The notes below the pieces were generated by a model. It worked only from the letters and a program-made list of their open reading frames with translations, had not been told where the DNA came from and did not search any database. This document shows, piece by piece, positions 2,154-22,360 of a stretch of 34,715 bases of DNA. The stretch lies in the NCBI RefSeq assembly GCF_014196625.1, contig NZ_JACIDZ010000025.1:1-34715 (forward strand), written 5' to 3'. This DNA comes from Martelella radicis. GTDB taxonomy: Bacteria; Pseudomonadota; Alphaproteobacteria; Rhizobiales; Rhizobiaceae. Position 1 is the first letter of the stretch. Every line of letters starts with the position of its first letter. The translations under genes and the position numbers were made by a program.

Positions 2154-3635
2154 TCAACGACAAGGGCACCGGGCCTGTTCGATGGCGTTGCGCCAATGCT
2201 TGCGTCGCCTCAGGCGGTCAAGGCTGGCTTCCCCCGGCATGAATGTGAGCGCGGCCTTGTGTGCGAGGTCACGGGCATCCTCGTCCGCAAAAAGCCCGGT
2301 TGCGATGCCGGCCACAAGGCCGGCGCCATAGCCGCTCAATGCATTGAGCGAGGGGACATTCACTTCTGCACCCAGAAGGTCGGCCTGCAACTGCATCAGA
2401 AATCCGTTTGCCGCCGCGCCACCGTCGGCGAGCAAGCCGGTGATCTCGACACCGAGATCCGCTGCCATGGCGTCAGCGACATCGCAGACCTGCATGGCGA
2501 TTGCTTCAAGCGTCGCCAGGGCAATGTGGGCGGGTCTTGTCGAGAGCGACAGGCCGGAGATCGTCCCTCGTGCGCTCGCATCCCAATATGGCGCGCCAAG
2601 GCCCGCGAGCGCAGGAATGAAGGCTACGCCGTTCGCGTCCCCGACGGTTTGAGCAAGCGTGGACAATTCAGCAGGACCGTCGAGCCCGAGCATGGTGCTG
2701 GCAAAGGCTGCGGCCTGGCCGGAGACGGTAATGTTGCCTTCAAGCGCATAGAGCGTTTCTCCGCCGCGTCGCCAGGCGACCGTTGTGGAGAGACCGTTTT
2801 CGGAATGCAATGGTGCCTCGGTCAGCGTCATCATCGAGGTGCCGGTGCCATAGGTCGCCTTGATGACGCCCGGCTGGCGCGCGCCGTGGGCAAAAAGTGC
2901 GGCGTGGCTGTCGCCAATCATGGCGCGGATGGGGATGGCGGCAGGCAGAACCAGCCCCCCTTGTGTCTCGCCGAAATTGTCGTCGCTATCGCAGATTTCG
3001 GCGAGAAGAGCTGACGGGACATCGAACAGACTGCAAAGCTCCGGGCTCCATTTGCCGGCCGAGATATCGAAAAGCTGGGTTCGCGATGCGTTTGATGCGT
3101 CGGTCTTGAAGCTCTGGCCGCCTGTCAGCCTGTAGAGAAGGTAGGTGTCGACGGTGCCTGCGCATAGCCGGCCTTCGGCGGCGGCCTTTCGCGCGCCTTG
3201 TTCGTTGTCGAGCAACCAGCCGATCTTGGCGGCCGGAAACAGCGGGTCGAGGCTGAGCCCGGTGATATTTCGGACAAGGCGCTCATTTTCAGCGGTGCGC
3301 AGCGGTGCAAGCCGTTCCTCCGAACGCCTGCACTGCCAGATGATGCAGGGGCCGATGGGGTTGCCGGTTTTCCTGTCCCAGACGAGAACGGATTCTCGCT
3401 GGTTGGAGATTCCGATGGCGGCGATGGCGACATCACCGGCCGCATCAAGGCAAGCGGCGATGGCGGTCTCCACGCTTTTCCAGATGGCGTCCCCGGTGGT
3501 TTCCGCCCAACCGGATCGCGGATAGGTGACCTCAAGGCCAGCCGATCCGGTTGCGGTGATCGTGCCCTCCTCATTGATCAGCAGCACTTTCGTGTTGGTC
3601 GTGCCCTGATCAATTGAAAGGATATGCCCGGTCAT
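2154..3635 (-). CDS. FGGY-family carbohydrate kinase, glycerol-kinase-like; candidate D-apulose kinase
   Basis: This is an ATP-dependent sugar or polyol kinase of 493 aa. N-terminal ATPase-fold signature: SIDQGTTNTKVLL (residues 7-19). C-terminal nucleotide-binding motif: LLADGGAAANGFLMQLQADL. It follows E. coli GlpK closely along its length (SNQRES, IIWQCRRS, SNASRTQLFD, GLGAPYWD). However, three glycerol-contacting positions differ: GlpK Tyr135 is Leu132, Gln246 is Ser243 and Phe270 is Ser267, while Arg80, Glu81, Trp100 and Asp242 are kept. That suggests a roomier pocket for a sugar larger than glycerol. It is the last gene of a four-gene operon with isomerase and split transketolase, and its ATG overlaps the transketolase stop (3632-3635). 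The order isomerase-transketolase-kinase matches ketose phosphorylation before a transketolase step, as in D-apiose breakdown. A pentulose or tetrulose kinase remains possible. Confidence 0.88.
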   Translation of the reverse strand: MTGHILSIDQGTTNTKVLLINEEGTITATGSAGLEVTYPRSGWAETTGDAIWKSVETAIAACLDAAGDVAIAAIGISNQRESVLVWDRKTGNPIGPCIIWQCRRSEERLAPLRTAENERLVRNITGLSLDPLFPAAKIGWLLDNEQGARKAAAEGRLCAGTVDTYLLYRLTGGQSFKTDASNASRTQLFDISAGKWSPELCSLFDVPSALLAEICDSDDNFGETQGGLVLPAAIPIRAMIGDSHAALFAHGARQPGVIKATYGTGTSMMTLTEAPLHSENGLSTTVAWRRGGETLYALEGNITVSGQAAAFASTMLGLDGPAELSTLAQTVGDANGVAFIPALAGLGAPYWDASARGTISGLSLSTRPAHIALATLEAIAMQVCDVADAMAADLGVEITGLLADGGAAANGFLMQLQADLLGAEVNVPSLNALSGYGAGLVAGIATGLFADEDARDLAHKAALTFMPGEASLDRLRRRKHWRNAIEQARCPCR

Positions 3636-4597
3636 TTTCCGTGTCCCGCCTCAAGCACGCCGCGAACGGAGGCTGCAATGCCATCCGCCGTCAGGTTGAA
3701 ATGCGAATAGAGGAACGAGATGGAACCTGTCGGAGCGAATTCCGGGAAGCCCATGATCCTGAGCCGGGCCGGTCGATGCTCGGCGATGACCTCGGCCACC
3801 GCTCCGCCAAGACCACCGCGGACAGAGCCTTCCTCGACGGTGACGATCGCGCCTGTTTCGGCGGCGGAGACGATGGCGTCGATATCGAGCGGGGCGATGG
3901 AGGACATGTTGATCACGCGGGCATCGATTCCCTCATCGACAAGGCGTTCGGCCGCCTGCAAGGCGCGGTGCACCATGACGCCATTGGCAATGATCGCCGC
4001 GTCCTGGCCTGGTTTCAGCGTCTCCGCGGCCCCCAGGCGGAATTTCGCGCCCTCGGGCCTTGCGAGTTCGGGAACCGGGAAGCGGCTGATCCGCAGATAG
4101 AAAGGGCCCTCAAGGCTTGCCGCAAGTTTGACCGCCTCCGCTGTTTCCCACGGATCCGAGGGGACGATGATCCTGAGGTTCGGCAAAGCGCGCAGCCAGG
4201 CCATATCTTCGATCGAATGATGGGTCGGGCCCAGTTCGCCATAGGCGATGCCCGAGGACTGCCCGACGAGCTTGACGTTGGTGTTGGTGTAGCAGACATC
4301 GGCCTTGATCTGCTCGAGCGCGCGGGCCGTCAGGAAGCAACCGGCGGCGCTGACGAAGGGAACCCTGCCGCCATTGGCAAGACCGGCGCCGACGCCGACC
4401 ATGTTCTGCTCTGCAATGCCGACATTGACCAGGCGCTCGGGCCAACGCTTCTGGAAGCCGCCAAGCTTTGACGAGCCGACGCTGTCGTTGACGACTGAAA
4501 CGATGGAGGCGTTCTCCTCGGCCAGCGCTTCCAGCGTCGAGGCGAACGCGACGCGGCAGTCAAACAGCTTTTCCTCTTTCTCAGCCAGCGCGCTCAT
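3632..4597 (-). CDS. transketolase C-terminal subunit; candidate AptB-like
   Basis: This 321-aa protein is the second half of a split transketolase: the pyrimidine-binding (Pyr) domain plus the transketolase C domain. Glu63 in VNVGIAEQNMVGVGAGLA is the conserved glutamate that activates thiamine diphosphate. Other family motifs follow: YGELGPTHHSIEDMAWLRAL, the FYLRI strand, and EEGSVRGGLGGAVAE near 255. The gene overlaps the upstream N-terminal subunit by 17 bp in a different frame and has its own ATG. This is therefore a natural two-subunit enzyme, not a frameshifted full-length one. The partner pair would move a two-carbon ketol unit between phosphorylated sugars in the cytoplasm. Split transketolases of this type serve D-apulose-4-phosphate breakdown, among other pathways. 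That specific reaction is inferred from neighbours. Confidence 0.9.
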   Translation of the reverse strand: MSALAEKEEKLFDCRVAFASTLEALAEENASIVSVVNDSVGSSKLGGFQKRWPERLVNVGIAEQNMVGVGAGLANGGRVPFVSAAGCFLTARALEQIKADVCYTNTNVKLVGQSSGIAYGELGPTHHSIEDMAWLRALPNLRIIVPSDPWETAEAVKLAASLEGPFYLRISRFPVPELARPEGAKFRLGAAETLKPGQDAAIIANGVMVHRALQAAERLVDEGIDARVINMSSIAPLDIDAIVSAAETGAIVTVEEGSVRGGLGGAVAEVIAEHRPARLRIMGFPEFAPTGSISFLYSHFNLTADGIAASVRGVLEAGHGK

Positions 4598-5459
4598 CGC
4601 TCAATTCTCCTATTGCCTGGTCATACTGGTTCCTGTTCAGGACGCCGTGGTGCCAGTGCACCTCGTCTTCCATGAAGGAAACGCCCTTGCCCTTGATGGT
4701 GTGGGCAATGATGCAGCGGGGCTTTCCCGCCGAGGGGGCGGCGAGGTGCTCAAGAAGGGCTGCATGATCATGCCCGTCGCATTCGCGCACTTCCCAGCCA
4801 AAGGCGCGCCACTTGTCGGCCAGCGGTTCAAGCGTGTTGGTCTCTTCCACCCTGGCGCCCTGTTGCAGCCGGTTGCGGTCGATGATCAGGGTGAGGTTGT
4901 CGAGCCTGCGATGGCCGGCCAACATGCCGGCTTCCCAGTTGCTGCCCTCCTGCTGCTCGCCATCGCCCGTGACAACGAAGACACGGCGGTCGGAGCCATC
5001 CAGCCTGGCGGCGATCGCCATGCCGACGGCGACGGGCATGCCATGGCCGAGCGGGCCGGTATTGGTTTCGACGCCGGGCAGGTAATTGCGGTTCGGGTGG
5101 CCGTTCAACCGGGAGAGCGGCCCCATATAGGTCGACAGTTCCGCGTGCGGAAAATAACCCGCCTCGGCCAGAGCCGCGTAGAATGCGCCGGTGCAGTGGC
5201 CCTTGCTCATGACGAAGCGGTCGCGCTCCGGCGCATCGGGTTCCTTAGGGTCATAGCGCATCACGCCGAAGAACAGCGTCGCCAGAATATCGGTGACGGA
5301 CATGTCGCCGCCGGGATGTCCGAGTTGCGCCTCGAATGCCATCGAAAGGGCATTGCGGCGGATATGCGTCGCCTTTTCTCGAAGAAAGGTCACGATCTCC
5401 TTCGGATCAGATGACAGGCCGGCCCTTGTGATGCCGGCGGGCAGGGTAACGGTACTCAT
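4581..5459 (-). CDS. transketolase N-terminal subunit; candidate AptA-like
   Basis: This 292-aa protein is the thiamine-diphosphate (PP) domain half of a split transketolase. The diphosphate/metal motif GDGEQQEGSNWEA is at residues 165-177. Active-site histidines are visible in AQLGHPGGDMS (near 48), SKGHCTGAF (near 88) and TGPLGHGMPVAVGMA (near 139). It starts 10 bases after the isomerase stop and ends inside the start of the C-terminal subunit, so the two halves should be made in equal amounts. A full-length transketolase (about 660 aa) would need both proteins. Substrate choice cannot be read from the sequence. The operon favours a ketose-4- or 5-phosphate derived from the isomerase/kinase product. 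Confidence 0.9.
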   Translation of the reverse strand: MSTVTLPAGITRAGLSSDPKEIVTFLREKATHIRRNALSMAFEAQLGHPGGDMSVTDILATLFFGVMRYDPKEPDAPERDRFVMSKGHCTGAFYAALAEAGYFPHAELSTYMGPLSRLNGHPNRNYLPGVETNTGPLGHGMPVAVGMAIAARLDGSDRRVFVVTGDGEQQEGSNWEAGMLAGHRRLDNLTLIIDRNRLQQGARVEETNTLEPLADKWRAFGWEVRECDGHDHAALLEHLAAPSAGKPRCIIAHTIKGKGVSFMEDEVHWHHGVLNRNQYDQAIGELSDERAG

Positions 5460-5469
5460 TCGTCTGGCC

Positions 5470-6936
5470 TCATGTGAACGTGTTGGTCGGCGGACAGAGC
5501 GCTTCGCTTTCGCCGCCGTGGCGGTAAAGCGGCCATTTCAGATAACGGGTGATGGCTTCCTCGACGACGTCGCCGTGATGGCCGCGGACCATGGCGACGT
5601 GGTGCTCGAAGCCGTTGCGGACGATGAAGCCCATGAGCGCACGCAGCTTCTTCACGGAGGTCACCGCGATGCCGCCATCCATGGGGAAGGGGTCGTCGGT
5701 AAAGTCGCCTTCGCCGGCATAGGCCTTGAGCGTCCCGGCGGTATCGTCGGAGGACAGGCGGAAATAGGTCATCGGACCGGCCTTCACCTTGCCCTTGACC
5801 GCGCCGAAGCACTTTTCCTTGCCGATCACGGTGCCCAGAACATCGAGCTCGGAGATCTCCGGCTCCGCGCCGATGAAGCTTCTCGGAAAATTGCCGCAAT
5901 GCGTACAGACGCATTTGTCCGCCTCGCGGGCATAGTTGTTGTTCCAGTCGAGAATGGCGGCCGGTGCGCCCGAGGCCAGCGACAGGGCGTACATCGAGAT
6001 TGCCCCCATCACATCAACCTCGCAGGCGCTTGGCATCAGTTTTTCGCTCAGCATCGACATGGATACGCATGTCGCGCAGCCGAAATTGTCCTGCAGCGAG
6101 CGCCAGCACTGAATGGCGCTGGCATCGCATTCGTTTTCCGCGATCCAGCGATCGACGGTGACGCCCCATTTGGCCTGGCGCACCAGCTTCTCGCGACCGA
6201 TATGCGCGGGGATGTGGCCGTACTGGGTAATCGCTTCGACCTTGGCTGCGACCTCGCTGTCGCTGTCGGCGAGCTTTCCGGCTCGGTCGATCAGCTCGGA
6301 CAGGTCGACGGTGACGACCGTGATGCCGCTTTTCTGCAGCAGCTTCTCCGAATAGCGCATCGTCTGGAACGAGCCGGTGCGGGCGCCGATGGAGCCTATA
6401 CGCGCGTTCTTAAGCCCGCGTACGGTGCGACAGACGCGGGCAAAACGTTCGAGGTCCGCGCCAAATTCATCACCGTCGACATCGGAGGTATGGGTGGTCG
6501 TGTCGGTGAAATCGATGCCGTACTGATAAAAATTGTTGGAAACCGAGATCTTGCCGCAGAAAGCGTCACGGCGGGAATGGACATCGACCTTGTCGACCTC
6601 GTCATTGGAGGCCTGCAACAGAACCGGGACATTCAGCCCGGCGCCTGCAAGGGTTTCTGCGATGGCGATTTCATCGCCGAAATTCGGCAGCAGAACCACG
6701 ATGCCGTCGATGTCGTCGCGATGTTCCTTGAAAAAGCGCGCGCACAAGGCGGCATCCTCGCGCGATTGCACGGCGCCGTTTTCCGTTGCGTCGAACGGGA
6801 GAATGCGATGGTCGATATCAAGCCGTGAGAGCTGTTCGATCACCTGTTTGCGGCTTTCCACCGCCGGAGCGCCATTGAAGAACTGGCGGCTGCCGACCAC
6901 GATTCCGAATGTGATCTTCTTCTGGAAATGATGCAC
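5470..6936 (-). CDS. L-fucose/L-arabinose isomerase-family aldose-ketose isomerase; candidate apiose-type isomerase
   Basis: This is probably a metal-dependent sugar isomerase of 488 aa, FucI/AraA superfamily. The metal ligands appear as Glu306 (ACEVDVMGA) and Asp330 (ILDWNNNY), 24 residues apart, the same spacing as Glu337 and Asp361 in E. coli FucI. A C-terminal histidine pair (GFEHHVAMV, about 445-446) is the likely third ligand. A cysteine-rich HCGN segment follows the Asp. I chose the GTG at 6936 because GGGAGGAGG sits just upstream; a longer in-frame ATG at 6966 has no ribosome site. It is the first gene of the operon with transketolase and kinase and is divergent from DeoR. The true substrate is unknown: fucose, arabinose, or a branched aldose such as D-apiose are candidates, and the transketolase neighbours favour a pentose. 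Confidence 0.85.
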   Translation of the reverse strand: MHHFQKKITFGIVVGSRQFFNGAPAVESRKQVIEQLSRLDIDHRILPFDATENGAVQSREDAALCARFFKEHRDDIDGIVVLLPNFGDEIAIAETLAGAGLNVPVLLQASNDEVDKVDVHSRRDAFCGKISVSNNFYQYGIDFTDTTTHTSDVDGDEFGADLERFARVCRTVRGLKNARIGSIGARTGSFQTMRYSEKLLQKSGITVVTVDLSELIDRAGKLADSDSEVAAKVEAITQYGHIPAHIGREKLVRQAKWGVTVDRWIAENECDASAIQCWRSLQDNFGCATCVSMSMLSEKLMPSACEVDVMGAISMYALSLASGAPAAILDWNNNYAREADKCVCTHCGNFPRSFIGAEPEISELDVLGTVIGKEKCFGAVKGKVKAGPMTYFRLSSDDTAGTLKAYAGEGDFTDDPFPMDGGIAVTSVKKLRALMGFIVRNGFEHHVAMVRGHHGDVVEEAITRYLKWPLYRHGGESEALCPPTNTFT

Positions 6937-6972
6937 TGAGCCTCCTCCCGGCGATGCGGCAATCATTATTGA

Positions 6973-6990
6973 TTTTCGAATTTTCTCGAA
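6973..6990 (-). promoter_or_regulatory. putative DeoR operator: two TTCGAA-like repeats one helical turn apart
   Basis: On the plus strand TTTTCGAA (6973-6980) is followed by TTCTCGAA (6983-6990), a 10-bp repeat in an AT-rich stretch upstream of the isomerase operon. Tandem repeats one turn apart are usual for DeoR-family operators. The motif resembles the repeats at 8141-8179 read in reverse. Binding is inferred. Confidence 0.45.
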
Positions 6991-7172
6991 TATTTGTGTT
7001 TTTAATCACTTTGTCAATCTAGAATTTCTGTTTTTCTTTGATGCTTCTGCGCTTCTAAGGTATGGATTGAGTTGCGGGGCTGCTCGGCGTATCGCGAAGG
7101 TAGCCGCAGATGCTTGGGTTCCGCAGACACGGTGGCTGTTGTCCGCGATCGTCGACTGAAAGGGATAGGGAA

Positions 7173-7997
7173 ATGGCAAGAAGTAGCGCCAGAAGGTCTT
7201 CGGCTGCTGAAGTTGCAAGTGGCGACAGGAAGGCTCTGCTGGCCGAGCCGCGACGGCTGAAGATCATGGAATGGCTGAAAGAAGAGGGGAGTGCCAGGGT
7301 CCGCGATCTGTCCGTCGCCTTCGAAGTCTCGGAGGCGACCATACGCCAGGATCTGGAGCGGCTGGAGAATGAGGGGCATATCGTCAGGGAGCATGGCGGT
7401 GCTTACCTCAAGACAATGCCGCAGCAGGTTCAGACGCTTTCGCTGCAACACCATGACCACATGACCGAAAAGGCAGCGATCGGCCGGGTCGCCGCCGGGC
7501 TTGTGTCGGATGGCGAGACGCTTATTCTGGATGCCGGGTCAACGACGACCGCGACGGCTCAAAATCTCATAAATCACAAGAACTTGACGGTTATTACCAA
7601 TGCGCTCAACATTGCGCTCATGCTGGGTAGCGTGCCGGGTTTCACCGTGCATATGCCGGGCGGCCAGTTCAAGGCGCCGACCCTGTCGCTGAGCGGCGAC
7701 AAATCGGTCGAATATTTCCGAGACATATTCGCCAACAAGCTGTTCCTGGCGACCGCCGGCGTCGGGATCGAGGCGGGACTGACCTATCCGAGCTTCGCAG
7801 ACCTGCAGCTGAAAGAGGCCATGATCCGTGCGGCCTCGCATGTTTACCTCGTTGCCGATTCTTCCAAGATCAACCGAGCGTCTTTCACGCGCCTTGGTGC
7901 ACTCGACATGATTCATTCCTTCGTGACGGATGCGGGTATCAGCGACAAGGATGCCCAGGCGCTCGAGCGCCACGGCATCGAAATCATCATCGCCTGA
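7173..7997 (+). CDS. DeoR-family sugar-responsive transcriptional regulator
   Basis: This is a 274-aa repressor-type regulator. The DeoR winged helix-turn-helix spans about residues 30-85 (RRLKIMEWLKEEG, then VSEATIRQDLERLENEGHI). The DeoRC sugar-phosphate sensor domain follows (ILDAGSTTTATAQNL, VITNALNIALML, and the AdSSKIN stretch near 230). The start at 7173 follows an AGGGATAGGGAA ribosome site; an upstream in-frame ATG at 7110 has none. A basic, serine-rich N-terminal tail of about 25 residues precedes the HTH. It sits between the isomerase operon and the CUT1 transporter, and similar repeats occur in both promoters, so it probably controls both. DeoR sensors normally bind a phosphorylated intermediate, here possibly the ketose phosphate made by the FGGY kinase. 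Confidence 0.93.
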   Translation: MARSSARRSSAAEVASGDRKALLAEPRRLKIMEWLKEEGSARVRDLSVAFEVSEATIRQDLERLENEGHIVREHGGAYLKTMPQQVQTLSLQHHDHMTEKAAIGRVAAGLVSDGETLILDAGSTTTATAQNLINHKNLTVITNALNIALMLGSVPGFTVHMPGGQFKAPTLSLSGDKSVEYFRDIFANKLFLATAGVGIEAGLTYPSFADLQLKEAMIRAASHVYLVADSSKINRASFTRLGALDMIHSFVTDAGISDKDAQALERHGIEIIIA

Positions 7998-8025
7998 CGC
8001 TGTTGTTGCCGAATCCCTTCTTGCT

Positions 8026-8050
8026 GCACGTCCCTGACCGGGCGTGCTTT
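8026..8050 (+). terminator. stem-loop terminator after deoR
   Basis: GCACGTCC (8026-8033) pairs with GGGCGTGC (8040-8047), an 8-bp stem with one G-T pair and a 6-base loop. It is followed by TTT. It begins 29 bases after the DeoR stop codon. The short T tail makes it a modest terminator. Confidence 0.5.
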
Positions 8051-8131
8051 CCCGCTATCTCGACATTTGGTCTGCGGGATCCGTCGCGATCGCCAAAAAA
8101 ACAAAAGAAATTGGAGGTAAACAAAAAAATA

Positions 8132-8162
8132 TTGACACTTATCGAAAGTTCGCCATGATAAT
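8132..8162 (+). promoter_or_regulatory. probable sigma-70 promoter of the CUT1 transporter operon
   Basis: A perfect -35 box TTGACA lies at 8132-8137. The -10 is either ATGATA (8155-8160, 17-bp spacer) or GATAAT (8157-8162, 19-bp spacer, closer to consensus). Transcription would start near 8168, about 33 bases before the binding-protein ATG. One operator-like repeat lies in the spacer and the other at the expected start site, which fits repression. Confidence 0.6.
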
Positions 8163-8179
8163 CGTCATTAATCGAAAGT
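8141..8179 (+). promoter_or_regulatory. putative DeoR operator: ATCGAAAGT direct repeat with 30-bp period
   Basis: ATCGAAAGT occurs at 8141-8149 and again, identically, at 8171-8179, exactly 30 bp (about three helical turns) apart. The two copies flank the -10 region of the transporter promoter. The reverse complement, ACTTTCGAT, resembles the TTTTCGAA repeat before the divergent isomerase operon, so one regulator may read both. Confidence 0.55.
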
Positions 8180-8201
8180 AGTGAAGCCCTGGGAGGAGAA
8201 C

Positions 8202-9455
8202 ATGGCGAAACTGACTATGCGTAAGGCGCTTATGGCCGGCGTGGCCCTGGCGGGTATGGGAGCTGCCGCTGCACAGGCGCAGGAGCAGAAGCTCACCATC
8301 TGGACCATTGCCTATACATCGAATGCGCAGGTGCAGGCTCTGAAGGACGCCGCGACCGGCTTTGAGGAGAGCCATCCGGGTGTCGATGTCGAGATCGTTC
8401 AGCGCGGCATCGACGAGCACAAGACGGCGCTTCGCGTTGCCGCAGGCGCATCCACCGGCCCCGACATCTATATGAGCTGGGCGGGCCTCGGCCTGGGCGG
8501 CGAATATGTTGCTGCTGGTTTGAGTGCCGACATTTCGAAATATTACGATGAATACGGCTGGGCCGACCGCCTCTCGGCTCCCTCCGTTGCCTTTGCCGGC
8601 CAGTTTGGCGAGGGCATGCATGGTATTCCTTTCCGTTTCTCCGGCGAGGCGATCTATTACAACAAGGCGCTTTTCGAGGAAGCGGGCATCGAAAGCGAGC
8701 CGCAGACCTATGACGAACTCGTGGCGGCCGCCGGCAAGCTGGCGGATGCGGGCATCCCGGCCTTCACCTTCGGCGGAACGGTCAACTGGCATCTGATGCG
8801 CCTGATGGACAATCTTCTCGAAACCGAATGCGGTGCCGAGACCCATGACGCACTGATGGCGATGGAGCTCAACTGGACGGAAACGGCCTGTGCGACAGAC
8901 GCCTTCGCGGAAATGCAGATGTGGGCTGAGAACTATATCCTGTCGCCGTTCATGGGGATCGACCAGGCGCAGTCCTTCAACCTTTATGTCGCCGGACGCG
9001 CGGCCATGATGCTTGAAGGCGACTGGCTGGTAAATCAGCTGAACGAGGTCACCGATGTCAACGAGTTCGGGGTCTTTCCGTTCCCCACAGGCACCGAGCG
9101 GCTCTATGGCTTTGCCGAGTATTTCTACATCTCGACCAAGGCCGATGATCCGGACCTGGCTGCCGAATTCTTCGAATATTTCACCTCTGACGAATACCAG
9201 GACAAGATCAAGGGAACGTTCGGCGCGATCTCGGTGAACACGAATGTCGATCTCGACGAGAACGCCCTGCCGCTTGAAAACGAGTGGTATGAGATCTTTG
9301 CCAATGCCAAGGGCACTTTCGTGAATGGTGACCAGGCCTTCCCGCTGGATGTCACCACCGAATATTTCCGTGTCATCAACGATGTGGCGTCCGGCAATCT
9401 CGCGCCGGCCGAGGCCGCCGGAGAAATGCAGACCTTCATCGACAATCGCGGCTGA
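8202..9455 (+). CDS. CUT1 ABC transporter extracellular sugar-binding protein
   Basis: This 417-aa periplasmic binding protein (SBP family 1, COG1653-like) delivers a sugar, commonly an oligosaccharide, to the permease pair encoded next. Residues 1-27 are a signal peptide (basic start, hydrophobic run, AAAAQAQ cleavage region). The mature chain begins with the typical strand KLTIWTIAY. Family features include FEESHPGVDVEIV near 50, GIPFRFSGEAIYYNKALFEE near 140, and GRAAMMLEGDWLVNQL near 265. I chose the ATG at 8202 because GGAGGAGAAC lies directly before it; an in-frame GTG at 8181 overlaps the expected transcript start and operator. The ligand is unknown. The hydrolase encoded in the same operon lacks a signal peptide, so an intact apioside or similar oligosaccharide is a reasonable guess. 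Confidence 0.93.
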   Translation: MAKLTMRKALMAGVALAGMGAAAAQAQEQKLTIWTIAYTSNAQVQALKDAATGFEESHPGVDVEIVQRGIDEHKTALRVAAGASTGPDIYMSWAGLGLGGEYVAAGLSADISKYYDEYGWADRLSAPSVAFAGQFGEGMHGIPFRFSGEAIYYNKALFEEAGIESEPQTYDELVAAAGKLADAGIPAFTFGGTVNWHLMRLMDNLLETECGAETHDALMAMELNWTETACATDAFAEMQMWAENYILSPFMGIDQAQSFNLYVAGRAAMMLEGDWLVNQLNEVTDVNEFGVFPFPTGTERLYGFAEYFYISTKADDPDLAAEFFEYFTSDEYQDKIKGTFGAISVNTNVDLDENALPLENEWYEIFANAKGTFVNGDQAFPLDVTTEYFRVINDVASGNLAPAEAAGEMQTFIDNRG

Positions 9456-9480
9456 CGTCCTCCTGCCGTTTGCGAAGGCT

Positions 9481-9504
9481 GGCCGGACCCTCTTGGGCCC
9501 GGCC
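9481..9504 (+). other. GC-rich stem-loop between binding-protein and permease genes
   Basis: GGCCGGACCC (9481-9490) pairs with GGGCCCGGCC (9495-9504), with one mismatch and a TCTT tetraloop. There is no T tract. It sits 25 bases after the binding-protein stop. Hairpins here commonly protect the upstream mRNA or cause partial termination, so the binding protein is made in excess over the permeases. That role is inferred from position. Confidence 0.55.
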
Positions 9505-9562
9505 GCCATCGGTCCATGCCGGTGGCCCGCCCGGCCGGTGACCATTCCGAGGATGTGGAATC

Positions 9563-10462
9563 ATGAATCTGAAGCACACGCTGCACGATCACCGTTATCA
9601 GGCCTTTGTCCTGCTGGGGCCTGCCCTGATCATCTACGCGGTTTTCGCGATCTATCCGATGATCGATGTGATCATCCTGAGCTTCCAGCGCTGGAACGGG
9701 CTTGACCCGAACCGCGAATGGGTCGGGCTTGCCAATTACAAGCATATCTTCACGCGCGACCCGGTGTTCTGGGTTGCCTTCCGCAACACCGTGATCTGGA
9801 CCGTCCTGTCCGTGATCTTTCCGCCGATGATCGGATTGCTGCTGGCCCTTGGCCTGAACCAGAAGATTTTCGCGCGCGGAAGCCTGCGTGCGCTCTATTA
9901 CCTTCCTGTCATCATCGCGCCGATTGCCGTCGCCACCATGTGGCGCTGGATGTACGACCCGTTCTTCGGCCTGTTCAATCAGCTTCTCACCGCGTGGGGC
10001 CTTGACGGGCTGATCCAGGATTGGCTGGGTGACCGCGACATCGCGCTCTATTCGGTTTTCGTCGCCTATGTCTGGCAGTCCGTGGGCTTTTCCATGGTTC
10101 TGTTTCTCGCCGGTCTGCAGGGTGTCTCGAAATCGCTTGTCGAGGCTGCCCTGATTGATGGTGCCAGCCGCTGGCAGGTTTTCCGTTATGTCACGCTGCC
10201 GGCGCTTCAGGCGACCATGACGATCGTGCTCGTCCTCTCGCTGATCAACTCGCTCAAGGCGTTCGACATCATCTACGGCATGACCGGCGGCGGTCCGGCC
10301 CAATCCACACAGATGCTGGCGCTATGGGCCTTCACCCAGGCGATGCAGATCTTCGACTTCGGACGGGGCGGCGCCATTTCGGTCGTGCTTCTGGTGATTA
10401 CGCTCGCCATCGTCGTGCCCTACATGAACTGGTCGCGCAAACGCGAGGAGGCCCACCAATGA
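9563..10462 (+). CDS. CUT1 ABC transporter permease (MalF/UgpA type)
   Basis: This inner-membrane subunit of 299 aa has about six transmembrane helices, the first at residues 15-40 (FVLLGPALIIYAVFAIYPMI). The cytoplasmic EAA loop that docks the ATPase is at 194-213 (EAALIDGASRWQVFRYVTLP). The FQRWNGLDPNREWVGLANYK segment after the first helix is typical of this subfamily. It follows the binding protein after a 107-bp gap with a stem-loop. Its last four bases (ATGA) overlap the start of the second permease, so the two are translationally coupled. Confidence 0.93.
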   Translation: MNLKHTLHDHRYQAFVLLGPALIIYAVFAIYPMIDVIILSFQRWNGLDPNREWVGLANYKHIFTRDPVFWVAFRNTVIWTVLSVIFPPMIGLLLALGLNQKIFARGSLRALYYLPVIIAPIAVATMWRWMYDPFFGLFNQLLTAWGLDGLIQDWLGDRDIALYSVFVAYVWQSVGFSMVLFLAGLQGVSKSLVEAALIDGASRWQVFRYVTLPALQATMTIVLVLSLINSLKAFDIIYGMTGGGPAQSTQMLALWAFTQAMQIFDFGRGGAISVVLLVITLAIVVPYMNWSRKREEAHQ

Positions 10463-11349
10463 CCGCCGAAACGATTGCTGTCGGTCGCGAAAAGGAAGAG
10501 GCAAAGGCCACCATGCTGAAGCCTTCCCGTGACCCGGTTCTGATCGCCTTGTGGATCTGTCTGGTCGCCGTCGCCGCGATCTGGGTAGCGCCCTTCATCT
10601 TCATCCTGTTCACGTCCCTGAAGACATCGAAGGACGTGATGATGACGGGGGCGTTCAGCTTTCCCTCTTCTCTCGAGATCTCGAACTATGCGAATGCCTG
10701 GGGCCGGGGCAATTTCGCGACGACCTTCTTCAACAGCGTCATCATTTCGGTCATCAAGGTGCCGCTCGGTATCTTCTTCTCGGCGATGGCGGCCTATGCC
10801 ATCTCGCGGATCGAAGTCGGCTTCAACAAACTGCTGCTGATGATCGTGCTGTTCGGCACCATGATCCCGTTTCAGGTGATGCTGGCGCCGCTGTTCACGC
10901 TGGTGAACCGGCTGGGCCTGATCGATACCTATGTCGGCGTCATCCTGCCCTATATCGCTTTCGGCGTGCCCTATCAGGTCTTCATCCTGCATGGCTTCTT
11001 CAAGTCCGTGCCGAAGGAGTTGAGCGAGGCCGCGCGCATTGACGGCGCGTCGCATTTCACCATTTTCCGGCGCATCTTCCTGCCGATCTCGATCCCGGCC
11101 TTGTCGGCGCTGTTCATTCTCGATTTCGTCAACACCTGGAACGAGTTCGCCATGGCGCTTGTCCTTCTGCAGGATCAGGGCATGTGGACCCTGCCACTCG
11201 GTCTGATGAGCTTCCAGGGGCAGTTTTCCAGCGATTACGGCCAGCTCAACGCGGCCATCGTCATGACGGTGCTGCCGGCCACCATCGTCTATCTGATTTT
11301 CCAGCGCTATTTCGTCTCCGGGCTGACATCCGGTGCGGTGAAGGGGTGA
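10459..11349 (+). CDS. CUT1 ABC transporter permease (MalG/UgpE type)
   Basis: This is the second inner-membrane permease subunit, 296 aa. A cytoplasmic N-terminal tail of about 27 residues is followed by six predicted helices, the first at about 28-50 (LIALWICLVAVAAIWVAPFI). The EAA motif is at 190-209 (EAARIDGASHFTIFRRIFLP). The MalG-type TSLKTSKDVM stretch follows helix 1. The start is the ATG within the ATGA overlap at 10459-10462, preceded by the GAGGAGG of the upstream gene's end. It should pair with the preceding permease and two copies of the ATPase at 13044. Confidence 0.93.
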   Translation: MTAETIAVGREKEEAKATMLKPSRDPVLIALWICLVAVAAIWVAPFIFILFTSLKTSKDVMMTGAFSFPSSLEISNYANAWGRGNFATTFFNSVIISVIKVPLGIFFSAMAAYAISRIEVGFNKLLLMIVLFGTMIPFQVMLAPLFTLVNRLGLIDTYVGVILPYIAFGVPYQVFILHGFFKSVPKELSEAARIDGASHFTIFRRIFLPISIPALSALFILDFVNTWNEFAMALVLLQDQGMWTLPLGLMSFQGQFSSDYGQLNAAIVMTVLPATIVYLIFQRYFVSGLTSGAVKG

Positions 11350-11371
11350 GGCTTCGCCGGCGCGCATGATA

Positions 11372-11470
11372 GCAATTCCACGCGAAGCGGAAACCGCTTC
11401 ACCGTCCGGAATTGCGTGAAACAAGAAGAACGAGCCTTTTCGCGGTTCAGACAAGAAGCGGAAAAGGCTC
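11372..11470 (+). repeat. double-palindrome intergenic mosaic element (rhizobial RIME-like)
   Basis: The permease-hydrolase gap carries two adjacent inverted repeats. In the first, GCAATTCC (11372-11379) pairs with GGAATTGC (11408-11415), nesting GAAGCGG (11384-11390) against CCGCTTC (11394-11400). In the second, GAGCCTTTTCGC (11432-11443) pairs almost fully with GCGGAAAAGGCTC (11458-11470). Two palindromes in about 100 bp resemble the intergenic mosaic elements known from Rhizobiaceae. I see only one copy in this window, so the family assignment is tentative. In the operon transcript it would form strong hairpins. Confidence 0.5.
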
Positions 11471-11492
11471 CGGGAAAGAATTGAGGAGTACC

Positions 11493-13028
11493 ATGCAGTT
11501 TCCATCCACCGTATCGAAATGGTCCGTATTCGAAGTCAGCCTGAAAGGCACCGAAACGGGCAATCCCTATCTCGATGTCGAGCTGTCCGGCCGCTTCAGC
11601 CAGGGAAACCGCGTGGTGACCGTGCCGGGCTTCTACGATGGCGATGGAACCTACAAGGTCCGTTTCATGCCGGACAATGAAGGCGCGTGGCGGTTCGAAA
11701 CCGTCTCTTCGGATGGAGCACTTGACGGCAAGACGGGAGATTTCTCCGTCGGACCGGCGGATGCGGGCAATCATGGCCCCGTGCGGGTTGCCCATCGCTA
11801 CCACTTCGCTCACGAAGACGGCACGCCGTATTTCCCGCTCGGCACCACCTGCTATGCCTGGACACATCAACCGCTGGACGAGCAGGAAAAGACGCTTGAG
11901 ACACTCAGGCAGACGAAGTTCAACAAGATGCGCATGTGCGTCTTTCCGAAAGACTATCCCTATAACCACAACGAGCCGCTCCACGATGTCTACCTGCCGA
12001 AAGCAAACGGCGAGGGCCAGGATTGCGACCGCCCCAACTTCGAGGCCTTCCGGCATTTCGAAAATCAGGTGAAGGCGCTCGGCGACATGGGCATCCAGGC
12101 CGATATCATCATCTTCCACCCCTATGACCGTTGGGGCTATTGCATGATGAGCGAGGCCCAGGACTTCCGTTACCTGAAATATCTCGTCGCCCGGCTCGCG
12201 GCCCATCACAATGTCTGGTGGTCGCTTGCCAACGAGTACGACTTCCTCATCGACGTCAAACCGATGCAACGGTGGGACCGGTTCTTCCATATCATCGAGG
12301 AGAACGACCCCTACCGTCATCCGAAGTCGATCCACAACGGCGATCCGGACGCCAATTACGACCACCGCAAGCCGTGGGTCGATCATGTCTGCATCCAGAA
12401 TTGGGACGTGAAACGCACGGTCGAGTGGCGTGACGATTTCGGCAAGCCGGTGGTCAATGACGAGCCGGAGTATGAAGGCAACCTGGTCCAGAGCTGGGGC
12501 AGCATCACGGCGGAAGAACTGGTGCACCGGTTCTGGATCACCGTCATGCGCGGCGGCTATGCCGGCCATGGCGAAACCTATGTGCAGCCCGATGATCGCC
12601 TGTGGTGGGCGAAGGGAGGCGTTCTTCATGGCGAGAGCTACAAGCGGATCGGCTTTCTGCTCGACCTCATCAAGGAGGATGTCACCACCGGCCTTACGCC
12701 GCTCGGCGCAACGCCGTTCGGTTTCCCGTGGAACCGCGTGTCCGGCGCCGGCGATGAGAATGTCACCTATGTCTATTTCGGCGAGCATCAGCCCGTCATC
12801 TGGTCTTCGGGTTTCCCGCAAGAAGACGGCGACTATGAAATCGACATTATCGACACATGGAACATGACTGTCACGCCGGCCAAAAAAGTGCCTGCGCCGG
12901 TGCCGCACCCGACCCGTCACGGATCAGTGGTGCGCGGCGGGGTGGCCGATGCCGCCTTTGGCGTGGAACTGCCCGGAAAACCCTATCTCGCCGTCCGCGT
13001 CAGGCCGCGCGGCAGAAAATCCGCCTAA
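11493..13028 (+). CDS. DUF5060/DUF4038 glycoside hydrolase, apiosidase-like (GH140-related)
   Basis: This 511-aa protein has an N-terminal beta-sandwich of the DUF5060 type (about residues 5-92; SKWSVFEVSLKGT, then VPGFYDGDGTYKVRFMPDNEG). A TIM-barrel of the DUF4038/apiosidase-like type follows (about 98-400; YFPLGTTCYAWTHQ, KMRMCVFPKDY, FHPYDRWGY), then a C-terminal beta domain to 511. Candidate catalytic acids are Glu248 in WWSLANEYDF and Glu324/Glu326 in VNDEPEYEGN. Family members include the apiosidase of rhamnogalacturonan II breakdown. There is no signal peptide, so it should act in the cytoplasm on an imported oligosaccharide. The start ATG at 11493 follows TTGAGGAGTACC. It sits between the permease and ATPase genes of a CUT1 operon, across from an isomerase/kinase/transketolase set that could use free apiose. 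Another pentoside or deoxyhexoside is possible. Confidence 0.85.
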   Translation: MQFPSTVSKWSVFEVSLKGTETGNPYLDVELSGRFSQGNRVVTVPGFYDGDGTYKVRFMPDNEGAWRFETVSSDGALDGKTGDFSVGPADAGNHGPVRVAHRYHFAHEDGTPYFPLGTTCYAWTHQPLDEQEKTLETLRQTKFNKMRMCVFPKDYPYNHNEPLHDVYLPKANGEGQDCDRPNFEAFRHFENQVKALGDMGIQADIIIFHPYDRWGYCMMSEAQDFRYLKYLVARLAAHHNVWWSLANEYDFLIDVKPMQRWDRFFHIIEENDPYRHPKSIHNGDPDANYDHRKPWVDHVCIQNWDVKRTVEWRDDFGKPVVNDEPEYEGNLVQSWGSITAEELVHRFWITVMRGGYAGHGETYVQPDDRLWWAKGGVLHGESYKRIGFLLDLIKEDVTTGLTPLGATPFGFPWNRVSGAGDENVTYVYFGEHQPVIWSSGFPQEDGDYEIDIIDTWNMTVTPAKKVPAPVPHPTRHGSVVRGGVADAAFGVELPGKPYLAVRVRPRGRKSA

Positions 13029-13043
13029 CAGGGAGCGTACGAC

Positions 13044-14150
13044 ATGGCTTCAGTTGAAATCAGGGACGTCCGGAAGTCCTACGGCGCCGTCGATGTCATC
13101 CACGGGGTGTCCGTTGATATAGCCCATGGCGAATTCGTCATTCTCGTCGGGCCGTCCGGTTGCGGCAAATCCACGCTTTTGCGGATGATCGCCGGACTGG
13201 AAACGATTACCGGCGGCGAGATCGCGATCGAGGGCAGGGTGGTCAACAATCTCCAGCCCAAGGCCCGCGACATTGCCATGGTGTTCCAGAACTACGCCCT
13301 CTATCCACAGATGACAGTGGCCCAGAACATGGGGTTCTCGCTGGAGCTGCAGGGTGCGAACAAGGACGAGATCAGGACCAAGGTCGGCGAGGCGGCTGCC
13401 ATTCTCGGGCTGGAACCTCTGCTCGCGCGCAAGCCGGCTCAGCTTTCCGGCGGCCAGCGTCAGCGCGTCGCCATGGGTCGCGCGATCGTGCGGGACCCGA
13501 AGGTCTTTTTGTTCGACGAGCCGCTTTCCAACCTCGATGCCAAGCTGAGGGTGCAGATGCGCTCGGAAATCAAGGCGCTGCACCAGCGTCTGGGTTCCAC
13601 CATCGTCTACGTGACGCACGACCAGATCGAGGCGATGACGATGGCCGACAAGATCGTGGTGCTGCAGGGCGGCTATATCGAACAGGTCGGCGCGCCGCTG
13701 GAGCTTTATGACAATCCGCGCAATATGTTCGTGGCGGGGTTTCTGGGCTCGCCGGCGATGAATTTCATCGAAGGTACGATCGCTACGGAGGGTGGTCCGG
13801 CGCTGCGTCTGCCCTCCGGCTTGCAGATCCCGCTGAGCCGGGCGCCTGCAGGCTGGAACGGCCGCAAGGTCGTCCTCGGGATTAGGCCAGAGGATATCGC
13901 GATCGGCGGCGCTGATGATGTCAGCGCGGAAGTCGAACTGATCGAGCCGACCGGTTCGGAAACGCATCTGAACGCCGGGCTCGACGGAAAGGAACTGGTT
14001 TGCGTTTTTCGCGAGCGTGTCGATCACAATCCGGGCGATACGATCAAGCTCTCCTTCGCCACGGATGCGGTGCATTTCTTCGATCCGGAAACGGAGCTTC
14101 GTCTCACTGAGGAACTGCCCCGGGAGGCGGCAGTAAGCATCATGTCGTAG
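13044..14150 (+). CDS. CUT1 ABC transporter ATP-binding protein (MsmK/UgpC type)
   Basis: This 368-aa ATPase energizes the sugar importer encoded at 8202-11349. Walker A is GPSGCGKST (36-44), the signature motif is [14 protein letters not shown] (134-147), Walker B is FLFDEP (155-160) and the switch histidine is His192. After about residue 240 comes the OB-fold/TOBE region of sugar-importer ATPases ([13 protein letters not shown] near 282). It follows the hydrolase by 15 bp with a GGGAGCG ribosome site. It closes the operon; a hairpin lies 80 bp downstream. Confidence 0.93.
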
Positions 14151-18773: not shown

Positions 18774-19060
18774 TATGTTTCTTCAGTTTTTTGGATAGCC
18801 AAGCCCGGCTTTCACGAATTGTCTTCTCGTTCCGCTCAAAATTCCGAATTTTATCGGTTTAGCAGGCGAAGCGACGATCATGATCAGGGTAAAGTCATTC
18901 GTTTTTTCAGATAATACAAAACAAGAAATAGAATTTTTCAAAGACATTTTTCCGTTCTAGCTTGTTTTTGACGAATTGATAGGCATTTGAGGACGGCGCA
19001 CAAAATCAGGGCATGATCGCCCACGGGAAGCCGGCCTCTGGAAAATCAGGGAGTGCGATT

Positions 19061-19858
19061 TTGCAGCGCGAGGTTGTCGACATCAATTGCGATATGGGCG
19101 AGTCCTACGGTCGCTGGCAGATCGGGGATACCGATGACGCGAAGCTGATGGAGTTCATCACCTCCGCCAATATCGCCACTGGCTTTCACGCCAGTGATCC
19201 GAACCTGATGGATCAGACGGTGCGCATGGCCGTCGAACACGGCATCGGTGTCGGCGCGCATCCCGGCTATAACGACCTGCAGGGCTTTGGCCGCCGCAAG
19301 ATCGACGGCACGGCGAAGGAACTGGTCAACGACATCATCTATCAGGTCGGTGCGCTACGCGAATTCACCCGCCGTCATGGCGGCATTCTCCAGCATGTGA
19401 AACCGCATGGCGCGCTCTACATGGAAATGGCGGTCAATGCCGAGCTTTCGCATCTGTTCGTCGACTACATGCGTACCGCCGCCCCCAATGTCAGCATTTT
19501 CTGCATGAGTGGATCGGTGACCGAGGAGATCGCCGTCGAGGCGGGCCTGCCGGTGATCCGCGAATTCTTCGCCGATCGCGAATACGGCGAGGACGGGCAG
19601 ATCGTCTTCACCCGTTCCGTCGGTCATCTCGATCCCGAGACGCTTGCAGCCCGTGCGGTGCGCGCCTGCAAGCAGGGCAAGGTGACGGCGGTGACGGGCC
19701 GCGATGTCGACATTCCCTTTGAATCGATCTGTTTTCATTCCGATACGCCCGGCGCGCTTGCCATCGCTAAGGCGCTGCGCGAGGCGCTGATCGCCGCCGG
19801 CATCCGCATTTCCCCCGTCTCAGAAATCATAAATGAAAAAATCCGGAGAACAGCATGA
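19061..19858 (+). CDS. pxpA: LamB/YcsF-family 5-oxoprolinase subunit A
   Basis: This protein has about 265 aa from the chosen TTG. It is the hydrolase-like subunit that, with PxpB and PxpC, opens 5-oxoproline to glutamate using ATP in E. coli and Bacillus. Diagnostic motifs appear in order: VDINCDMGESYGRW, SANIATGFHASDP, GVGAHPGYNDLQGFGRR, ILQHVKPHGALYMEM, EFFADREYGEDG and CFHSDTPGALAIAKALR. I prefer TTG at 19061 because AGGGAG precedes it and family members begin a few residues before the VDIN motif. An in-frame ATG at 19013 would add 16 unlike residues and is the alternative. It heads the operon and overlaps the next gene by ATGA. The actual cyclic amide substrate is unproven. Confidence 0.9.
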   Translation: MQREVVDINCDMGESYGRWQIGDTDDAKLMEFITSANIATGFHASDPNLMDQTVRMAVEHGIGVGAHPGYNDLQGFGRRKIDGTAKELVNDIIYQVGALREFTRRHGGILQHVKPHGALYMEMAVNAELSHLFVDYMRTAAPNVSIFCMSGSVTEEIAVEAGLPVIREFFADREYGEDGQIVFTRSVGHLDPETLAARAVRACKQGKVTAVTGRDVDIPFESICFHSDTPGALAIAKALREALIAAGIRISPVSEIINEKIRRTA

Positions 19859-20097
19859 GCAAGCTCGAAATCAAGTCGCCTCTGCCGGGCACTTTCTACC
19901 GCAAGCCCTCTCCCGACGCGGCTCCCTTCAAGGAAGACGGCGCCAGCGTCACCGAGAAGGAGACGATCGGGCTGATCGAGGTGATGAAGACGTTTCACGA
20001 GATCCCGGCCGGCGTTTCCGGCTCCAGCATCACCTTCCTCGTCGATGACGCCGAACCCGTCATGGCCGGTCAGGTGCTGGCAGAGGTCGAGGCATGA
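19855..20097 (+). CDS. biotin carboxyl carrier protein (stand-alone biotinyl domain)
   Basis: This 80-aa protein is a bare biotinyl/lipoyl-fold domain. The biotin-accepting residue is Lys45 in IGLIEVMKTFHEIPAG; the EVMKT sequence replaces the more common EAMKM. It begins with the usual strand IKSPLPGTFYRKPSP and ends with VMAGQVLAEVEA, without the flexible Ala/Pro-rich linker of AccB. It would shuttle carboxybiotin from the biotin carboxylase encoded next to the carboxyltransferase formed by the pxpB- and pxpC-like proteins. Its start and stop both overlap neighbours by ATGA, so it is co-made with them. Confidence 0.9.
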   Translation: MSKLEIKSPLPGTFYRKPSPDAAPFKEDGASVTEKETIGLIEVMKTFHEIPAGVSGSSITFLVDDAEPVMAGQVLAEVEA

Positions 20098-21488: not shown

Positions 21489-22360
21489 AGCTGCGCTATT
21501 CCTTCGGAGGTGACGAACACCTCTTTGTCGAATGCAGCGAGGAAATGTCGCTGGAGGCGTTTTTCCATACGCTGTCAATCACCAACAGGGTCCGCGACGC
21601 GAAGATCAGGGGCGTCACAGAGATCTGCCCGGCCAATGCGTCCTTCCAGATCAAGTTCGACCCGGACATCATCCATCCGGATGACATGCTGAAGGAAGTC
21701 CAGGCGATCGAGCTTGCCGACCAGAAGTCGGAGCCGGTGATCAAGACACGGATCATCGAAATTCCGGTCTATTACAACGACCCGTGGACGCATGAAACGC
21801 TGATGCGTTTCCGTGAGCGCCATCAGGATCCGGAAAGCACCGATCTCGAATATGCCGCACGGATCAACGACTACAAATCCGTCGCCGATTTCATCGACGC
21901 CCATTCCGGCGCGCCGTGGATCGTCACCATGGTCGGCTTCGTTTCGGGCCTGCCGTTCATGTACCAGATGGTCGAGCGCCAGCGTCAGATCGAGGTGCCG
22001 AAATATCTGCGCCCCCGTACCGACACGCCGAAGCTGACTGTCGGCTATGGCGGCTGCTTCTCCTGCATCTATTCCGTGCGCGGGGCTGGCGGCTACCAGA
22101 TGTTCGGCATCACGCCGATGCCGATCTACGACCCGACCCAGACGACCAGCTATTTGAAGGACTTCATGGTGTTCTTCAAGCCGGGCGACATCGTCAAGTT
22201 CAAGCCGATCGACCGCGAGACCTATGACGCCGAGGTGAAGGCGGTGGAAGAGGGCACCTTCGCCCCGCCGATCCGAGAGGTCTCCTTCGACCTCAACGAA
22301 TTCAACAAGGACATTGACGGCTACAATGCCAAGCTGGAGGGCATTCTCAATGACCATTAA
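21485..22360 (+). CDS. pxpB: PxpB/KipI-family carboxyltransferase-like subunit (urea-carboxylase CT-A domain type)
   Basis: This protein has 291 aa, against about 220 for E. coli PxpB. The first 90 residues (GDEHLFVECSEEMSLEAFFH) form the KipI N-terminal domain. The rest carries the longer layout of the urea carboxylase carboxyltransferase A half: EIPVYYNDPW, DLEYAARINDYKSVADFIDA, MVGFVSGLPFMYQM, a GYGGCFSCIYSVRGAGGYQM segment and FFKPGDIVKFKPID. It would pair with the next gene product to form the site where carboxyl is moved from biotin to the amide. It overlaps the carboxylase gene by ATGA and the next gene by 11 bp. The symbol marks family membership, not a proven 5-oxoprolinase role. Confidence 0.87.
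   Translation: MKLRYSFGGDEHLFVECSEEMSLEAFFHTLSITNRVRDAKIRGVTEICPANASFQIKFDPDIIHPDDMLKEVQAIELADQKSEPVIKTRIIEIPVYYNDPWTHETLMRFRERHQDPESTDLEYAARINDYKSVADFIDAHSGAPWIVTMVGFVSGLPFMYQMVERQRQIEVPKYLRPRTDTPKLTVGYGGCFSCIYSVRGAGGYQMFGITPMPIYDPTQTTSYLKDFMVFFKPGDIVKFKPIDRETYDAEVKAVEEGTFAPPIREVSFDLNEFNKDIDGYNAKLEGILNDH

Follow-up and report, generated by a model that had tools for sequence, protein, structure and literature searches.

The present study concerns a window of 34,715 nucleotides, one whole contig (NZ_JACIDZ010000025.1) of the Martelella radicis draft genome (4.99 Mb, 41 contigs), and within it a locus at positions 2154-14150 that we regard as a candidate system for the utilisation of apiosides. 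Two divergent arms lie around a single DeoR gene. The minus-strand arm encodes an isomerase, the N-part and the C-part of a transketolase and an FGGY kinase, in this order and with genes that overlap or abut (-4, -17 and +10 bases), and the plus-strand arm the DeoR regulator, a CUT1 solute-binding protein (SBP), two permeases, a hydrolase with the domain succession DUF5060-PF13204-DUF5605 and a UgpC-type ATPase (Table 1). An earlier note on this DNA had described a divergent locus of this make-up, with CUT1 importer, hydrolase, isomerase, kinase, split transketolase and a DeoR gene between them, and all these families are indeed found here; the importer set (SBP, two permeases, MalK/UgpC ATPase) is complete by family. 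The start of the second permease is most likely ATG 10459, with a 4-base overlap with the first permease.

Table 1. Genes and intergenic features of the divergent locus, with the evidence for each assignment
Feature	Position	Strand	Evidence
FGGY kinase, candidate D-apulose kinase (AplK type)	2154..3635	-	TIGR01311 score, pocket L/S/S, tree
Transketolase C-part (AptB-like)	3632..4597	-	PF02779 + PF02780; 44% identity to E. coli AptB
Transketolase N-part (AptA-like)	4581..5459	-	PF00456; 46% identity to E. coli AptA
AraA/FucI-superfamily isomerase, candidate D-apiose isomerase	5470..6966	-	PF02952; predicted fold
Divergent intergenic region, TTTCGA site at 6974, possible DeoR operator	6967..7109	.	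Site density, 80 loci
DeoR-family regulator	7110..7997	+	PF08220 + PF00455; 58-95% identity in 61/80 isomerase loci
Pair of ATCGAAAGT-ended repeats ahead of the importer genes, spaced 30 bp; possible DeoR operator	8131..8179	.	Repeat search
CUT1 solute-binding protein, candidate apioside binder	8181..9455	+	PF01547
CUT1 permease	9563..10462	+	PF00528
Second CUT1 permease	10459..11349	+	PF00528; start by overlap
DUF5060-PF13204-DUF5605 hydrolase, probably intracellular, candidate apioside hydrolase	11493..13028	+	Pfam; 4n0r match; gene neighbourhoods
UgpC/MalK-type ATPase of importer	13044..14150	+	NF008653, 506 bits vs cut-off 432

The isomerase had first been noted as FucI-like, a label that rests on its C-terminal domain: Pfam finds the fucose-isomerase C-terminal domain PF02952 only, and the predicted fold is nearer to L-arabinose than to L-fucose isomerases. 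An AlphaFold2 model built from 25 rows (pLDDT, the predicted local distance difference test, 86; predicted template-modelling score, pTM, 0.89) best matches L-arabinose isomerases (template-modelling score, TM, up to 0.79) and, in second place, L-fucose isomerases (up to 0.72), with identities of 10-15%. The residues E316, D340, H455 and H456, presumably the metal ligands, do not vary in any of the 46 aligned rows, which include distant homologues, and the conserved acids and histidines together with the predicted fold are traits of the L-fucose/L-arabinose isomerase superfamily. A sequence search of the PDB found no relative, either with the single sequence or with a profile, whose matches all had E values of at least 0.6. 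The protein is 95% identical to one of Martelella mediterranea USBA-857, and in the tree the window protein, the enterobacterial proteins and the homologues at 47% identity group together against homologues at 23-31% (support 100/100). By family it is not an ApsI, as it combines PF02952 with an AraA/FucI fold and is not a xylose-isomerase-like TIM barrel (PF01261); it may nevertheless work like ApsI without being one. We regard this AraA/FucI-type enzyme as a candidate D-apiose isomerase, which would mean that the first reaction of the freed sugar is left to an enzyme family not expected there. Two other routes were considered for the locus and rejected: the sulfoquinovose transketolase route, because the isomerase scores 94 bits on SftI against a cut-off of 700, and L-fucose/L-arabinose catabolism, because no aldolase or epimerase is found among the scanned window proteins.

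A scan of named genomes gave 248 relatives of the isomerase, of which the best 80, nearly all labelled Alphaproteobacteria, were kept. Both transketolase subunits are encoded in 62 of these 80 loci, the kinase is also present in 60 of the 62, and six (L031, L042, L046, L065, L096, L109) contain the hydrolase plus importer as well; given these counts, the linkage of isomerase, transketolase and kinase is not a matter of chance. The hydrolase-importer cassette occurs in several orders and strands in the six loci, and part of the importer lies at the end of locus L045. The window C-part shares 58-90% identity with the C-parts in 62 of the 80 loci that carry one, and the window N-part 54-91% with the N-parts in 63. 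A two-subunit transketolase encoded beside the kinase had been proposed earlier, and the distribution of the Pfam domains over two genes, which adjoin the kinase gene, bears it out. In a transketolase tree built from the window, two full-length transketolases and 41 loci with both subunits out of the 80 (44 rows in all), the alphaproteobacterial clade (99/97) and the gammaproteobacterial clade (100/100) are separate, and the two may possibly form a family of two branches.

Sites of the form TTTCGA/TCGAAA precede both window arms (besides the one in the divergent region, at 8142 and 8172). Across the 80 loci their density in the 300 bp before the isomerase gene is 6.5 times that over whole loci, a figure confounded by AT-rich intergenic DNA, and 34 of the 80 have at least two such sites there. 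This suggests a DeoR regulation via these sites.

The kinase had been taken for a GlpK-like enzyme with an altered pocket, and the alignment confirms the altered pocket. On the GlpK equivalog model TIGR01311 (cut-off 590) it scores 496 bits, against 495 for E. coli SE15 AplK; the kinases of Rahnella and of genome G222 have 476 and 508, and the window genome's own GlpK has 690. With the broader subfamily model of GlpK (cut-off 498) the figures are 468 bits for the window kinase and 490 for AplK. An identity with GlpK was therefore rejected, since the score is under the equivalog cut-off and the genome has its own GlpK elsewhere. The glycerol-kinase pocket positions, which we take to be numbered Y135, Q246 and F270, are kept in 19 of 19 GlpK-type kinases, a label that denotes sequence rank and no transketolase within 1.5 kb flanks, the NCBIfam cut-off having been checked for the window genome's own GlpK only. 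By comparison, among the 40 transketolase-linked kinases (22 alphaproteobacterial, two Martelella including the window, two of genus g10, 13 gammaproteobacterial and one Caballeronia) position 135 is L or M in 39, window and E. coli AplK included, and 246 and 270 are both S in all 40; the window kinase has L/S/S, as does AplK. For the kinase tree (62 rows in all), 22 of the 58 alphaproteobacterial kinase rows were chosen by locus id. L115-L126 were omitted; six of these were fetched again, with longer flanks, among L170-L175, and two as L176-L177. The tree unites the 19 GlpK-type rows in one clade (100/100). The window kinase lies outside it, in a clade of 20 alphaproteobacterial rows, all transketolase-linked and the g10 kinases among them (100/99); the gammaproteobacterial AplK rows form a separate clade (99/99); the branching order among the clades is not settled. 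Our AplK reference is the E. coli SE15 gene of that name in PMC13001218 and not a characterised enzyme. With its pocket and its position in the tree, the kinase is a candidate D-apulose kinase of AplK type.

The gene neighbourhoods of the isomerase point to the sugar. An SBP 58-86% identical to RHE_RS26605 of R. etli CFN 42 is found in 45 of the 62 loci with isomerase and transketolase (74-86% in 44 of them, 58% in one), and the gene of RHE_RS26605 belongs to the same gene run as that of OiaX, the 3-oxo-isoapionate-4-phosphate decarboxylase. Its Rahnella homologue matches PDB 5ibq/4ry0 at about 1e-130, of which we take 5ibq to be the alpha-D-apiose complex of the R. etli protein, an attribution that could not be confirmed. 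The cluster of E. coli SE15 comprises AptA, AptB, AplK, a CUT2 transporter and two short-chain dehydrogenase/reductase (SDR) oxidoreductases; its kinase and transketolase genes are named in PMC13001218, which reports growth on D-apiose for other strains with a cluster of this type and states that ApsI is missing from it. The plasmid clusters of Rahnella, Sodalis and Klebsiella resemble that of E. coli in AptA (78-79%), AptB (73-77%) and AplK (70-72%), and carry the isomerase family of the window (49-50% identity to the window protein). Genome G594, on the other hand, has in the slot behind the kinase a PF01261 TIM barrel, which we take to be of ApsI type. Three unrelated solutions, the SDR pair, the AraA/FucI-type isomerase and the TIM barrel, thus seem to fill one step. 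Homologues of the E. coli SDRs (55-68% identity) also occur beside the isomerase, both of them in L032, L050 and L098 and one in L066 and L088. As these five loci hold SDR homologues plus isomerase, the two are not strictly exclusive, a finding that fits poorly with the published view of the SDR pair as a simple substitute for the isomerase.

The hydrolase is most likely translated from ATG 11493, which follows an AGGAG, and not from TTG 11412; the annotated homologue of NZLR1 starts within about one residue of this ATG, from which the protein has 511 residues. No signal peptide is seen by eye, and the enzyme should therefore act inside the cell. It had been described as an apiosidase-like hydrolase with DUF5060 and DUF4038, and DUF5060, PF13204 and in addition DUF5605 are found; PF13204, presumably the former DUF4038, is the Apiosidase-like model of Pfam, which the protein passes with 71.5 bits (cut-off 26.5). 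We assume that GH140 enzymes belong to PF13204 and that this Pfam family is wider than GH140. The sequence matches PDB 4n0r over nearly the whole length (E 2e-100), and the other matches of the profile, at E values of at least 0.24, are unrelated proteins; membership in GH140 by direct sequence match was therefore rejected. The predicted model (pLDDT 83) is likewise nearest to 4n0r (TM 0.84, 36% identity in the structural alignment), followed by the GH5 mannanase ManDH5 (0.66-0.68) and the GH140 structures 5msy (0.58) and 8t9w (0.58-0.61). Residues N247-E248, E324 and E361, numbered from ATG 11493, are invariant in 14 rows, as would be expected for a retaining enzyme of clan-A type. It is the gene context that suggests which bond would be cut.

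This context extends beyond the isomerase loci. In R. leguminosarum WSM1689 the importer-hydrolase cassette has ApnL (1043 bits, cut-off 750) and OiaX (777, cut-off 700) upstream of it, with an OiaK that scores 479 bits, under its cut-off of 700; homologues of ApsD, ApnL and DhaKL stand in front of the cassette in NZLR1, and in G187 the cassette is downstream of homologues of the same three. ApnL and OiaX were assigned by NCBIfam, and ApsD we take to be part of the same Rhizobium oxidative route. Among plasmids, 15 of the 30 hydrolase records listed (of 93) are also among the 60 SBP records listed (of 238), and in these 15, from strains that are close kin, hydrolase and SBP are always on one strand and 12-13 kb apart. 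In G222 the hydrolase is accompanied by a second copy, a peptide-type ATP-binding cassette (ABC) transporter, DeoR, both transketolase parts, the kinase and apiose-type ABC genes, and in G291 genes of the same kinds lie on either side of an unread stretch, and the kinase is followed by an AP_endonuc_2 gene. The second hydrolase of G222 (L168, 9769-11373) is 43-46% identical and directly beside the first, with the peptide-type ABC transporter and, at a greater distance, a nucleoside-hydrolase-like gene; it perhaps serves apiosides with other linkages.

Of the 297 genomes of the order, 15 possess the hydrolase (window genome included). Each of these has some apiose-type genes, although weak in G206 and decayed in G005; an ApsD homologue is found in four (G187 87%, G087 74%, G286 63%, G206 50%), and transketolase genes near the hydrolase in three. 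The apiose-type SBP is present in 12 of the 15, the exceptions being G000 (the window genome), G005 and G206, vs 16 of the 282 others (p 1.5e-11), and the isomerase in eight of the 15 vs eight of 282 (p 5e-8). Without the window genome there are 14 genomes with hydrolase, 15 with isomerase and seven with both (p 5e-7); counted by genus, four are shared of eight and nine among 123 (p 8e-4, or 6e-3 without the window genome). The SBP likewise occurs in 13 of the 16 isomerase genomes (p 1e-12); these 16 are the genomes, among 40 that gave some match, whose best E value is at most 1e-140. Because the genomes are related, all these p values are only a guide. In G005 (L165/L185) the transketolase N-part beside the hydrolase is shortened to about 210 codons and stands with a C-part, and the stretch read shows no kinase; this transketolase set is probably a decaying copy.

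The window genome itself contains no apiose-type SBP above 32% identity. A search with ApsD gave eight matches of 25-33%, and as the best-scoring of them reaches only 28%, the oxidative apiose route was set aside for this genome; ApnL gave no match there, nor did the control genomes for that model. If the draft is complete here, the importer-hydrolase arm is the only recognisable source of apiose, and the system would be self-contained.

Apiose caps plant flavonoid glycosides and is part of rhamnogalacturonan II and apiogalacturonan. Starting from the genes, their order and families, the kinase pocket and the repeated linkage with apiose genes, we infer the substrates, the reaction order, the cell compartment and the regulation as follows. 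The CUT1 importer would take up a small apiose-bearing glycoside, from which the hydrolase would release D-apiose in the cytoplasm. The AraA/FucI-type isomerase would convert D-apiose to D-apulose, the kinase D-apulose to D-apulose 4-phosphate, and the two-subunit transketolase would produce xylulose 5-phosphate and dihydroxyacetone phosphate by passing a two-carbon unit on to glyceraldehyde 3-phosphate. DeoR, encoded between the arms, probably represses both. The order of reactions is that of the transketolase route ApsI-AplK-AptAB, reportedly the work of Carter et al. in 2018. On sequence evidence, we consider it quite probable that the locus is an apioside utilisation system from importer to transketolase. 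The apiose route put forward in the earlier note is thus supported by the kinase pocket, the enterobacterial clusters, the R. etli-type SBP and the cassette linked to D-apionate genes.

A number of observations weigh against this reading, and the rival explanations are best discussed along with them. The donor pocket of the alphaproteobacterial transketolases is, to judge from the alignment, not the same as that of enterobacterial AptAB: a conserved arginine, which we take to be R520 of E. coli TktA, is found in 27 of 27 aligned alphaproteobacterial transketolases and G in 13 of 13 gammaproteobacterial AptB, and the motif GELG(P/A)TH or GNLGPTH of the 27 alphaproteobacterial rows compares with GPLASTH in 13 of 13 AptB. 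Plain identity is not diagnostic for split transketolases, because the C-part has 44% to AptB and other split transketolases of Rhizobium plasmids reach 41-42% at best. The different pocket, together with identities of only 41-46% between kinase and transketolase and the E. coli genes, would suit a pathway for a related sugar (another branched pentose or ketose phosphate, with a differently tuned transketolase), in which the alphaproteobacterial branch diverged from the enterobacterial apiose branch. Yet the same kinases and transketolases stand beside the SBP of the R. etli-type apiose cluster in the loci counted above, the same types occur beside the AP_endonuc_2 isomerase in G291, and the kinase pocket is that of AplK; we hold this explanation to be highly unlikely. 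Further points concern kinase and transporter: the Caballeronia kinase adjoining transketolase genes retains Y135, the G222 kinase narrowly exceeds the cut-off of the broader GlpK subfamily (503 vs 498 bits), the Rahnella-type clusters have a transport SBP with just 44% identity to that of E. coli, and 5ibq is called a probable ribose binder in PMC8112048.

Not all isomerase loci fit either. No transketolase genes are present in seven of the 54 full-flank loci (L098 and L104, without transketolase, have the apiose-type SBP), L040, L087 and L095 show no apiose genes, L083 and L091 adjoin other CUT1 importers without transketolase, and the 47% homologues in G056 and G119 are without apiose genes in the stretch read. 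That a few homologues lie away from transketolase genes, and that the predicted fold is nearest L-arabinose isomerase, could mean that the enzyme is an L-arabinose, L-fucose or D-arabinose isomerase merely neighbouring the other genes. This is barely plausible given its company of both transketolase subunits in most of the 80 loci, its being the only annotated sugar isomerase in the Rahnella, Sodalis and Klebsiella clusters, and the lack of an aldolase of the arabinose or fucose route among the window proteins scanned. As for the cassette, it is apart from apiose genes within the stretch read in L160-L163, L167 and L169, and also in Aureimonas AU20, and the hydrolase has no sequence match to the solved GH140 structures (5msy, 8t9w), single or as a profile, only 4n0r being significant. 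Apiose might then be the catabolic sugar and the hydrolase remove another one (e.g. glucose or galacturonate), a second, unlinked enzyme freeing the apiose. This would agree with a fold nearest to 4n0r, whose substrate is not stated, then to the GH5 mannanase and only afterwards to GH140, and with the second, more distant hydrolase copy (43-50%) in G222 and G291 of genus g10, which suggests subfamilies with different bonds. Nevertheless, the hydrolase passes the Apiosidase-like model and is the one glycosidase seen in all three kinds of apiose gene set, others not having been systematically searched, so that we consider this possibility rather unlikely.

An apioside system would be of a known kind of pathway with new components. 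The D-apiose transketolase route is listed as MetaCyc PWY-8089, as named in PMC13001218, and E. coli SE15 genes named there were used here in place of the characterised AplK, AptAB and ApsI of Carter et al. 2018. The window locus resembles the ApsI-AplK-AptAB route in having an isomerase, an FGGY kinase with the same pocket signature and a split transketolase, and most of its relatives have an apiose-type ABC transporter beside them. It differs in its isomerase, which belongs to the AraA/FucI superfamily and is no TIM barrel, in the transketolase pocket, in the CUT1 importer and hydrolase in front, and in the lack of an apiose-type SBP over 32% in the genome. With the apiose cluster of E. coli and E. 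fergusonii (PMC13001218) it shares the AplK, AptA and AptB types, although that cluster has no isomerase gene and instead two SDRs, a CUT2 transporter and another regulator. The Rhizobium oxidative D-apiose/D-apionate route (ApsD-ApnL-OiaK-OiaX) is served in several Rhizobium by the same CUT1-hydrolase cassette, but uses entirely different catabolic enzymes. The GH140 apiosidases (BT1012, 5msy; 8t9w) are similar in predicted fold and only 13-15% identical to the window hydrolase, which has an extra N-terminal DUF5060 and C-terminal DUF5605 and is probably intracellular; BT1012 is given as a beta-apiosidase in PMC7939467. The near full-length relative 4n0r is BVU_0362, a putative glycoside hydrolase of Bacteroides whose entry states no function.

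Elsewhere in the window, positions 23369-27062 encode a CUT2-type sugar ABC transporter (SBP, ATPase, permease) that is a distant relative of the apiose type. A set of LamB/YcsF, biotin carboxylase and both carboxyltransferase parts at 19013-23321 is presumably of 5-oxoprolinase type, and near the contig end (31083-34697) a GH4 glycosidase, a LacI regulator and a weak GH88-like match indicate another glycan locus. Among the isomerase loci, L091 (Rhodobacteraceae PARR1) is also near open reading frames that resemble arabinofuranosidases by eye.

The earlier note had suggested that a self-contained route from an imported apioside, and a FucI-type enzyme as its isomerase, might be new, and no precedent was met in the literature searched; as far as that literature shows, the novelty lies in the family of the isomerase, in the importer and hydrolase as a front end, and in the co-occurrence of these. 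We lean, with less assurance than for the locus itself, towards a wider view, in which the AraA/FucI enzyme would be a third non-homologous way from D-apiose to D-apulose, DUF5060-PF13204-DUF5605 proteins with CUT1 importers would be intracellular apiosidases that plug into three routes, and strains such as this one would live on apiosides alone, without a transporter for free apiose. Our reading offers a testable function for a glycosidase architecture in which two domains of unknown function surround an apiosidase-like domain, and for a solved structure without stated substrate (4n0r), and it names a candidate for the isomerase of clusters of the Rahnella, Sodalis and Klebsiella type. It makes a sharp prediction, a handful of proteins and one substrate chain, and suggests how bacteria can take up apiose as a bound glycoside instead of a free sugar.

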